A stretch of DNA of 64,000 nt from Reyranella soli (lineage in GTDB: Bacteria > Pseudomonadota > Alphaproteobacteria > Reyranellales > Reyranellaceae), in assembly GCF_007992495.1 (NCBI RefSeq), contig NZ_BKAJ01000082.1:1-64000 (forward strand), in the 5' to 3' direction. The translations under genes were made by a program, and so were the position numbers. The notes beneath the pieces were generated by a model. The model saw nothing but the letters and a program-made list of their open reading frames with translations, was not told the DNA's origin and searched no databases. Shown one piece after another: positions 19,983-21,879 of the stretch. The first letter of the stretch is position 1, and the number at the start of each line of letters is the position of its first letter.

Positions 19983-20609
19983 CTACTTCACGGCGATACC
20001 ACGCAGCACGAGCCTGAGCCCGCTCAGGAATTCGGCGTCGGGCGAAATCTTGCGCGCGCTCCGGGCGGTGTCGGCAAGAAGCGGGAAATCGTCCGGAGGC
20101 AGCGCCGCGATCGCCGCCGTGCCTTCTCCGCCGAGTGGGCCGAGGTGCTGGAGCTGCACGGCGCCGAAGACATAAGCGACAATCGTCCGGAACGCGATGG
20201 CCCGGCGCTCGCCCGCGAAGCCCGCTTCGGCCAGAACACTAAGCAGCGCTTCGCCCCAGCGCAGCGAATGGATCGAGGCATGGCGGCGCGCGAGAAGCAG
20301 CGGCGTCACCGCCGGATGCGTCGTCGCGACGGCATGCGCACGCACCGCGAGCTCGGTCGCCTTGTCGACCCAGTTCTTGCGACGGCCGACATCGAGATCG
20401 GGACCACCCTGGGCGGGATCGAGCACGAGATCGACCACCAGCGCTTCGAGCTGCTCGCGGCCCTGCACATAGCGGTAGAGCGACATGGTGCCCATGCCGA
20501 GCTCGTCTGCGACCGCCCGCATCGACAGGCCGTCCGGGCCTTCGCGCCCGATCACTGCGAGAGCGGCTTTGGCCAGAAGGGTGGGGGTGAGGGAACGCGG
20601 CCTAGGCAT
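19983..20609 (-). CDS. TetR/AcrR family transcriptional regulator
   Basis: A 208-residue TetR protein. Residues about 8-50 form the helix-turn-helix (LLAKAALAVIGREGPDGLSMRAVADELGMGTMSLYRYVQGREQLEALVVD). The C-terminal helical domain carries the TetR_C_1-like EAGFAGERRAIAFRTIVAYVFGAV segment. The ATG at 20609 is preferred because the upstream extension crosses the promoter palindromes. It is divergent from a peroxiredoxin-like gene, and two palindromes in the 89-bp gap suggest it represses both. Confidence 0.88.
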   Translation of the reverse strand: MPRPRSLTPTLLAKAALAVIGREGPDGLSMRAVADELGMGTMSLYRYVQGREQLEALVVDLVLDPAQGGPDLDVGRRKNWVDKATELAVRAHAVATTHPAVTPLLLARRHASIHSLRWGEALLSVLAEAGFAGERRAIAFRTIVAYVFGAVQLQHLGPLGGEGTAAIAALPPDDFPLLADTARSARKISPDAEFLSGLRLVLRGIAVK

Positions 20610-20698: not shown

Positions 20699-21313
20699 AT
20701 GCCTGAAGACCACCTCATCTCTCCTGGCACGATCCTTCGGCCGCGCGTCCTGCGGGACGTGTCCGGCCGCTCCGTCTCTATCCCGCCGGCCGCAGGACAG
20801 GGAGAGGATGCTCTGGTGCATCTGCAGTTCCGCCGCTTCGCCGGATGTCCGGTGTGCAATCTGCACCTGCGCTCCTTCGCCCGCCGTCATCGCGAACTCG
20901 ACACGGCCGGGGTGCGCGAGGTCGTCCTGTTCCATTCGCCCGCCGACGAGCTGCGGCCGCACACGGCGGACCTGCCCTTCGCCGTCGTCGCCGACCCCGA
21001 CAAGCGGCTCTATGCCGAGTTCGGCGTCGAGTCGTCGCCGCGCGCGCTGCTCGACCCGCGCGCCTGGGTACCCATCCTGCGCGCGATCGCCTTTGCTACG
21101 ACCGGGATCCTGACGGGCACGGTCCGTCCGCCCGCCGCGAAACCGCAGGGCGGGCGCCTCGGGCTGCCGGCCGACTTCCTGATTGCGCCGGATGGGCGGG
21201 TGGTTGCCTGCAAGTACGGCGCGCACGTCGACGATCACTGGTCGATGGACGACGTTCTCGCGCAGGCGCGGGCTTGGCGGGGAGAACGGTCCCGAGAACT
21301 GGTCGGCGTCTGA
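20699..21313 (+). CDS. Peroxiredoxin-like family protein (thioredoxin fold)
   Basis: A 204-residue thioredoxin-fold protein of the AhpC/TSA-related peroxiredoxin-like group. LVHLQFRRFAGCPVCNLHLRSFARRHRELDTAGVREVVLFHSP carries a C50-P-V-C53 pair in the peroxidatic position, followed by LPFAVVADPDKRLYAEFGVE. Members probably reduce peroxides or act as thiol oxidoreductases in the cytoplasm. The start has a GGAGGG ribosome site 7 bp upstream. It is divergent from tetR, and the paired palindromes suggest stress-inducible repression. Confidence 0.82.
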   Translation: MPEDHLISPGTILRPRVLRDVSGRSVSIPPAAGQGEDALVHLQFRRFAGCPVCNLHLRSFARRHRELDTAGVREVVLFHSPADELRPHTADLPFAVVADPDKRLYAEFGVESSPRALLDPRAWVPILRAIAFATTGILTGTVRPPAAKPQGGRLGLPADFLIAPDGRVVACKYGAHVDDHWSMDDVLAQARAWRGERSRELVGV

Positions 21314-21444
21314 CTGACGGCAGTGCTGGACGTCCGGACCGCGGACAAGGCCTAGTCTGGCTGGCCTCGACACTGCCGACACGTGGTACCTCCTGGAGCG
21401 CCAAAAGTCGCTAAAACGAAATTGCGGCGCCGTGACTGTGGTGC

Positions 21445-21473
21445 TTGCCAGATCACCGCACTGAAGTTATAAT
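21445..21473 (+). promoter_or_regulatory. Near-consensus sigma70 promoter, TTGCCA-N17-TATAAT
   Basis: The -35 TTGCCA (21445-21450) matches five of six consensus bases, the spacer is 17 and the -10 TATAAT (21468-21473) is perfect. Such a match is rare by chance at this GC content. Transcription would start near 21480 and run into the structured region with no annotated gene. Confidence 0.6.
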
Positions 21474-21584
21474 ACCCCACGCTTCAGGCGATCGGCCACT
21501 GGCACGATTCGCCGGAGCGCTCGCTCTTTGCATCGTTTGTCCGATGTCATGCCGCGCGGGCGATGTCGTTCGCCATAGGAGGCA

Positions 21585-21746
21585 ATGTGTGCCCTTCTCC
21601 TGAAGCAACGTGACCCCCAACTGCTTGGGGTTCGGGTTCCGAAGAGCTACCAGGCTCTCTGTCGGAAACCTCGAAACTCCGCAAATGTTCACGGAAATGT
21701 AACAATGACTGCAGTGCATGCATCGGCGGCCATGCCGCGGACCTAG
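21585..21746 (+). CDS. Possible small protein, 53 residues
   Basis: An open frame starting MCALLLKQRDPQLLGVRV and ending AAMPRT lies 105 bp after the predicted transcript start. AGGAGG precedes the ATG by only 2 bp, tighter than usual. A GTG two bases later has better spacing but encodes only eight codons. The peptide is basic, has no signal or membrane segment and is not recognised. The hairpins overlap it, so the transcript may equally be non-coding. Confidence 0.25.
   Translation: MCALLLKQRDPQLLGVRVPKSYQALCRKPRNSANVHGNVTMTAVHASAAMPRT
21615..21675 (+). ncRNA. Candidate structured RNA with two hairpins
   Basis: CCCCAA-CTGC-TTGGGG (21615-21630) is directly followed by a bulged stem of about 17 pairs. 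In it GGTTCCGA and AGAGC (21635-21647) pair with GCTCT and TCGGAAACC (21654-21670), and the outer TTCG pairs with CGAA (21672-21675). It lies 135 bp after a near-consensus promoter in a gene-free region. No T-run follows, so it does not look like a simple terminator. Confidence 0.4.
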
Positions 21747-21879
21747 ACGAACCGGCTCGTCTTGTTGCCCCAGTTTGGCCAGCAGCCTTCCCCGAGTCTG
21801 AAAACCGGTAGCGGAAATAGCGGAAATGTCCGAATTCCTACGGGTAGGGGCTTACGCTTCCTGGAGGCACAAATCACGT

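Follow-up and report, generated by a model that had tools for sequence, protein, structure and literature searches.

An orphan promoter in an intergenic gap of Reyranella soli is probably part of a dispersed, promoter-bearing repeat

Introduction

In alphaproteobacteria, the Rhizobium intergenic mosaic elements (RIME) are mosaic, intergenic units of about 110 nt with large palindromes. Br-REP1 and Br-REP2 of Bradyrhizobium are described as multi-copy intergenic palindromes, one between convergent genes, and the Br-REP1 core measures 20 nt (PMC5082802). Sigma70-like promoters inside small repeats are described for Correia of Neisseria, a 204-bp miniature inverted-repeat transposable element (MITE) found mostly upstream of genes, and for MITEAba12, BrickBuilt, QMITE1 and SonMITE_1 (PMC10969869). 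In Streptococcus pneumoniae, the small interspersed repeats BOX, RUP and SPRITE are foldable as RNA, BOX being modular; they are described as over-represented between convergent genes and are viewed as parasitic non-autonomous elements (PMC3049150).

We analyzed a 64,000-nt stretch of the Reyranella soli genome (NZ_BKAJ01000082.1, positions 1 to 64,000), referred to below as the window, in which a first-pass annotation had reported a near-consensus promoter driving an unannotated structured transcript. We judge this locus to be a diverged member of a dispersed, modular and non-coding repeat family whose copies carry their own promoter; the family probably spreads as a non-autonomous mobile element. 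In kind, the element belongs with the promoter-bearing MITEs and Correia, with BOX, RUP and SPRITE, and with the alphaproteobacterial REPs. Like Correia and the promoter-bearing MITEs as described, it is short, non-coding and intergenic, has many copies and carries an internal sigma70-like promoter. Unlike Correia as described, the Reyranella copies are longer, modular and mostly situated between gene 3' ends; their promoter is the best-kept part, and no target duplication was found. Compared by description, the element differs from BOX, RUP and SPRITE in its built-in promoter, greater length and conserved end boxes, and from the short Br-REP palindromes in being a long modular unit with a promoter. 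RIME, by description also, resembles it in mosaic intergenic make-up. A literature search that included Reyranella, with most subscription papers outside its coverage, returned no description of the family.

Results

The promoter and its gene-free gap

The promoter described by the first-pass annotation is exact: TTGCCA-N17-TATAAT has a 17-nt spacer and 11 of 12 consensus bases, and it is the sole consensus-like match between positions 20500 and 22900, where shuffled sequences average 0.4 matches. The site stands above chance because an independently trained family profile, presented below, picks that single place. The gap is also as first reported, with 566 nt between stop codons (21314-21879), and both previously noted hairpins, one of 6 bp and one longer and bulged, were recovered (Table 1). 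The 281-nt region gave a folding z of -1.77, and 11 of 200 shuffles folded equally well, so that folding alone is weak evidence.

An AGGAGG (21577-21582) and a 53-codon ATG frame exist downstream, as had been stated, and would suit a short peptide-encoding mRNA transcribed from the window promoter. The two are, however, separated by only 2 nt, and the usual Shine-Dalgarno site sits farther from its start codon than this. The orthologous copies compared, in the related genomes G051 and G053, have no ATG and contain frame-shifting gaps, and other copies differ in sequence across the region. We consider a peptide mRNA extremely improbable, and a small protein gene was rejected because neither start codon nor frame is conserved in these two copies.

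Table 1. Features of the window locus (positions are those of the window)
Feature	Position	Strand	Remarks
AhpC/TSA-like gene	stop at 21313		upstream side of the gap
Whole repeat copy	21315-21722	+	408 nt, left to right end box; shared boxes and module order
Left 17-nt end box TGACGGCAGTGCTGGAC (family form TGMCAGCANTGCTGGCA)	21315-21331		palindrome-like; 2 nt past the upstream stop codon
Upstream module GGAGCGCCAAAAGTCGCTAAAACGAAATTG	21395-21424	+	BLAST (gap query 76-105) at further own-genome places; consensus
Sigma70-type promoter TTGCCA-N17-TATAAT	21445-21473	+	motif scan and family conservation
Hairpin P1, CGCTTCaGGCGA..TCGCCGGAGCG	21480-21519	+	just below the promoter; folds in the window, G051 and G053
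Near-invariant 22-nt box GCTCTTTGCATCGTTTGTCCGA	21523-21544	+	1 mismatch to GCTCTWTGCATCGTTNATCCGA
Hairpin P2, short form CGGGCG-ATGT-CGTTCG	21557-21572	+	read from sequence
53-codon frame	21585-21746	+	judged not a gene
6-bp hairpin CCCCAA-CTGC-TTGGGG	21615-21630	+	kept in G051; largely lost in G053
Longer bulged hairpin GGTTCCGAAGAGC..GGCTCTCTGTCGGAAACC	about 21632-21675	+	folding and orthologue comparison
Right 17-nt end box TGACTGCAGTGCATGCA	21706-21722		palindrome-like
Remnant, 3' end of AMP-binding (acyl-CoA synthetase-like) gene	21742-21774	-	94% match to G003 over 33 nt
Second-copy piece, type I, AAAACCGGTAGCGGAAATAGCGGAAATGTCCGAATTC module	21792-21838	+	47 nt; matches 6 of 9 type I loci, best E 1e-9
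DUF2167 gene	ends 21880		convergent, far side of the gap

A modular repeat family

BLAST of the gap against its own genome returned 47 matches in short blocks, and two other copies used as queries returned 50 and 38. We trained a profile on 70 copies from other genomes (set A2, from which third-subtype and doubtful rows were left out). Its only match within the 64-kb window was at 21444-21549 (forward strand; 30.7 bits, E = 1.2e-8), which makes this site one copy of the family, diverged from the rest. A further alignment (A1) held 120 of the 146 collected references together with the window copy, partial and doubtful rows again being left out.

From left to right, the family shows a 17-nt box, a GGnGCGC.AAAA.TCGC.AAAACGAAA block, the promoter, a short hairpin, the 22-nt box, a GC hairpin, 9-nt tandem units (for example AGCGGAAATAGCGGAAATGTCCGAATTC), further hairpins and a second 17-nt box. 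The length over both end boxes ranges from 313 to 615 nt, with a median of 438 (42 copies). The first-pass annotation missed that the window copy begins at 21315, just past the upstream stop, and that a second palindrome-like box closes it at 21706-21722. The block CTACCAGGCTCTCTGTCGGAAACCTC of the longer bulged hairpin recurs in other copies, and P2 reads CGAGCG-ATGC-CGCTCG in the orthologues of G051 and G053. Within a single copy the 9-nt units seem to co-vary (AGCGATATTAGCG versus ATCTAAACTATCT; for example in L013, L014, L020 and L027), which suggests local homogenisation or slippage.

The upstream 17-nt box was present in 104 of 150 copies and absent from 16918 nt of flank; the downstream one was present in 61 of 150. 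In the window's own genome the 17-nt box had 36 forward and 34 reverse matches (controls, 0). Both end boxes occurred in 38 of 150 copies, each palindrome-like, so that direct and inverted orientation are indistinguishable.

The 22-nt box, within 3 mismatches, occurred at 58 own-genome places (control, 0), and all 12 further box places that were fetched scored as element copies. It is the same in all three subtypes encountered; because copies from named genomes were collected by the exact 22-nt-box pattern, its conservation is partly built in for those copies. Position 5 of the box is A in 117, T in 32, G in 1 and C in 0 of 150 copies, a start-codon-like bias that is partly explained by the A/T-only collection pattern. 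Given this pattern, the lack of a Shine-Dalgarno sequence there and a frame that runs for only 3 codons in 42 of 150 copies, the start-codon reading was set aside. A viral origin was rejected, as a viral collection held 0 exact matches to the box.

Distribution across genomes

Among 65 genomes of the genus, 10 had matches and 55 had none. Up to 65 candidates were scored per genome, making 65 a floor: the window's genome (G000) carries at least 63 copies, G051 and G053 at least 65 each, G061 58, G013 40, G055 25, G019 23, G004 15, G009 4 and G059 1. Across the class, 1 of 190 genomes matched, namely the window's own. In named genomes, the matches listed for the exact 22-nt-box pattern include records of Reyranella, Rhodospirillales bacterium and Alphaproteobacteria bacterium, and among them are single matches in records titled Saprospiraceae and Chloroflexi. 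At the Saprospiraceae place, the box stands without the surrounding element. The Chloroflexi-titled contig (L181, 1603) holds a type II copy; since its isolate name and a carrier bin belong to one groundwater series, the contig is likely misbinned. As seen here, the family is confined to mostly large genomes within one genus, Reyranella.

Conservation of the promoter

A promoter was scored when 9 or more of the 12 consensus bases matched and the spacer was 16-18 nt long. The sense strand of 97 of 144 copies then carried a promoter, versus 2 of 144 on the other strand; the same rule detected 0 in 136 flanks and 3.5% in 1440 shuffles. The spacer was 17 nt in 89 of the 97 promoter-bearing copies, and under this rule 34 of 144 copies had no match. 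In 45 own-genome copies, with a median pairwise identity of 68%, the -35 element held 1.78 bits, the -10 element 1.87 and the 22-nt box 1.87, the remaining 60 columns averaging 0.88; these copies were found by BLAST and by the profile, and most of them also trained that profile. The third subtype has another -35/-10 layout (TTGACA-17-TAGAGT-like), placed upstream of the same 22-nt box.

Lack of conservation of promoter and stem in relatives had been named in advance as a finding that would count against the proposed transcript. The layout is kept in the orthologous copies, with the hexamer pairs TTGATC-17-TATAGT and TTGACG-17-TATGGT. To judge from the sense-strand enrichment, the high information content and these orthologue pairs, the promoter is a maintained part of the element. 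It is presumably active.

Genomic sites and probable turnover

Site context was read wherever the genes on either side could both be reached (109 of 146 copies), using gene calls from a simple codon-usage script. Relative to the element, 76 of the 109 lay between convergent genes, 20 in (-,-) context, 12 in (+,+) and 1 in divergent context; in the background, drawn from named-genome loci only, 122 of 596 gene pairs were convergent. None of 63 copies lay inside a gene. The promoter pointed toward a gene start in 13 cases and away in 21, a difference that is not significant. The elements nearly fill their gaps: the 22-nt box lies a median of 198 nt past the upstream stop codon and 252 nt short of the downstream one.

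The predominance of convergent sites and the nearly filled gaps could also reflect a host-selected transcription barrier, in which end boxes, promoter and hairpins would stop read-through from both sides. Yet 55 of the 65 genus genomes manage without the element, several have just about 7-50 nt at the lepA site described below, and no intrinsic-terminator-like site was reported within the 566-nt gap of the window. Pneumococcal IS elements and parasitic repeats are likewise described as enriched between convergent genes (PMC3049150). We regard a barrier selected by the host as highly unlikely.

The site beside lepA (LepA_C) was compared at 26 of 30 loci. It holds a type II copy in G053, a type I copy in G013 and a short copy of the third type in G009; in G051, the right end of a copy lies at the contig edge. 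Another gene adjoins lepA in G000, G019 and G061, and G061 has an element on the far side of that gene. The gap measures about 7-50 nt in family-free genomes such as G078, G012, G049, G021, G076, G057, G080, G002 and G045 and in the carrier G004, and the remaining loci read contain other sequence or genes. Because distinct subtypes occupy this site in different species, the comparison points to turnover by repeated insertion or replacement.

Other hairpin-forming sequences were seen in the lepA 3' gap of G008, G066 and G048 (L217, L234 and L218), of the form CCTCATCCTGAGGAGC.. in two genomes and of the TTCCCCATTC.. type in another. This gap is possibly a hotspot for several repeat families.

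History of the window copy

In G051, G053 and G055, an element at the window locus has the AhpC-like gene on one side and, on the other, an acyl-CoA synthetase-like gene of the AMP-binding type. G061, with 58 copies elsewhere, has only 13 nt there. Its AhpC gene is about as close to that of the window (84.4% identity) as is that of G053 (84.9%), which makes loss in G061 and gain elsewhere equally possible. The G061 version of the acyl-CoA synthetase-like gene contains the AMP-binding Pfam domain. In G051 (C18; L199/L201/L205), the AhpC-like gene next to the orthologous copy looks rearranged, since the two blocks in which it matches the window's gene (query 300-423 and 466-557) are oppositely oriented.

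The window copy is 78% identical to that of G051 and 69% to that of G053, the latter compared with about 85% for the flanking AhpC-like gene. From the 33-nt match to the 3' end of the acyl-CoA synthetase-like gene and the second-copy piece behind the right box, this gene was probably lost in the window lineage. The last codons of the gene run directly into the second-copy piece (21742-21838), a trace of the lost gene that arose perhaps by a deletion involving repeats. Of the identities initially proposed for the locus, a relic comes nearest for this particular copy, which is diverged and lies beside remnants.

A foldable stretch downstream of the promoter

Folding a consensus of the unsorted sets yielded weak structures; pairing was therefore tested in subsets of rows with fixed spacing. 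For P1, 88.8% of cells paired in 46 type II-like rows versus 81.6% after shuffling, with 20 compensatory cells versus 9.4, a count reached in 0 of 500 shuffles. In 39 type I rows, the values were 90.4% versus 83.5% paired and 7 versus 1.6 compensatory cells. Slid versions of P1 paired far less, yet one type I slide exceeded the true register in compensatory cells (9) and a second equalled it (7); moreover, related copies are not independent, so the compensatory counts overstate the evidence somewhat. A strong P2 stem was found in 53 of 136 copies versus 5 of 128 flanks, and its arms are swapped together, for example from CCCGTCC/GGACGGG to CCCATCC/GGATGGG and to GTGCGTCC/GGACGCAT. Mean folding z was -0.58 for P1, -1.46 for P2 and -0.22 for flanks; P1 is thus not exceptionally stable, and the case for it comes from co-variation instead of energy. 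The structured unit proposed earlier stands insofar as dozens of copies, and the orthologues, conserve a promoter with a foldable stretch behind it. It is a repeat copy, and the notion of a single unannotated gene was abandoned.

Such conservation might instead indicate a multi-copy family of trans-acting small RNAs. Their unpaired 22-nt box would bind one shared target, an mRNA or a protein, and dosage or regulation would explain why copies are kept. The promoter and the box outlast the other parts, hairpins stand on both sides of the box, and the box is shared by all three subtypes, as this would predict. It fits poorly, however, with 55 family-free genomes among 65, copy numbers from 1 to at least 65, and a site that holds one subtype in one species and another subtype in the next. 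Each of the 12 additional own-genome box places (within 3 mismatches) was a copy of the element, and none was a separate target. The window had no gathering-level Rfam 15 covariance match anywhere in its 64 kb, and a scan of 6 copies gave just two sub-threshold matches, to the unrelated families mir-1323 and rpfG; a known RNA family was rejected on these grounds. A tRNA/tmRNA search of the window also returned none. Overall, a small RNA family of this kind seems unlikely, and we retain the reading of a mobile repeat.

Search for a mover

No target-site duplication was detected in 42 copies, whose flank matches averaged 1.45 versus 1.61 for shuffled pairs (165 of 200 shuffles as high). As is usual for MITEs, the copies are many, short and non-coding and have no transposase gene (63 own-genome matches, 313-615 nt, no frame kept in orthologues); with no target duplication and with inverted repeats undecided, we did not file the element as a MITE.

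Y1 transposase genes (E 1e-5) occurred in 9 of 10 carriers versus 23 of 55 other genomes, an association (Fisher p = 0.006) in which genome size is a confounder. IS110 transposases occurred in 8 of 10 carriers and in 27 of 55 others. The carrier G004 had neither a Y1 transposase at E 1e-5 nor an IS110 transposase, and the latter was not found in G019 either, the assembly of which is 81% complete. Because not every carrier has the enzyme, the element does not behave as a REP/BIME system with a Y1 (RAYT) transposase or as an IS110-type element should; the two transposases are only loosely associated with it, and neither was decisive as a mover. A recurrent neighbouring gene was rejected, the largest clusters of neighbour proteins, judged by eye, comprising 5 of 261. 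No autonomous partner or mover emerged among the neighbours or the Y1 and IS110 candidates.

IS110-type recombination is RNA-guided via a bridge RNA. By analogy, the element's own folded RNA, with its near-invariant unpaired box, might be needed in trans by its moving enzyme and so drive the spread, through an IS110-like RNA-guided or another RNA-dependent route. With transcription as part of the cycle, the promoter and 22-nt box would be expected to outlast other parts. We consider this additional step distinctly unlikely.

Discussion

The Reyranella element shows an unusual combination of properties: the promoter and the 22-nt box are best kept, the hairpins below them co-vary, and the copies gather at gene 3' ends. 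We propose that it spreads as a non-autonomous mobile repeat, with the moving enzyme supplied from elsewhere. Transcription from its promoter would yield a short, folded RNA, a product of the element and not of a host gene. Copies would survive mostly between convergent 3' ends, where a travelling promoter and hairpins may do least harm. At the window locus, the copy would already have stood downstream of the AhpC/TSA-like gene before the split from G051 and G053. Later loss of the acyl-CoA synthetase-like gene from the window's genome would account for the terminal codons that remain of it and for the partial second copy beside them.

What began as an orphan promoter thus becomes a countable family, in which a single genome can supply dozens of natural replicates, all with a promoter, a foldable stretch and a defined site of their own. 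The family makes it testable whether the promoter is kept for the spread of the repeat, and why repeats gather between convergent genes. It also carries a warning for annotation: a near-consensus promoter with hairpins in a gene-free gap of these genomes may well be repeat DNA and not a new gene.
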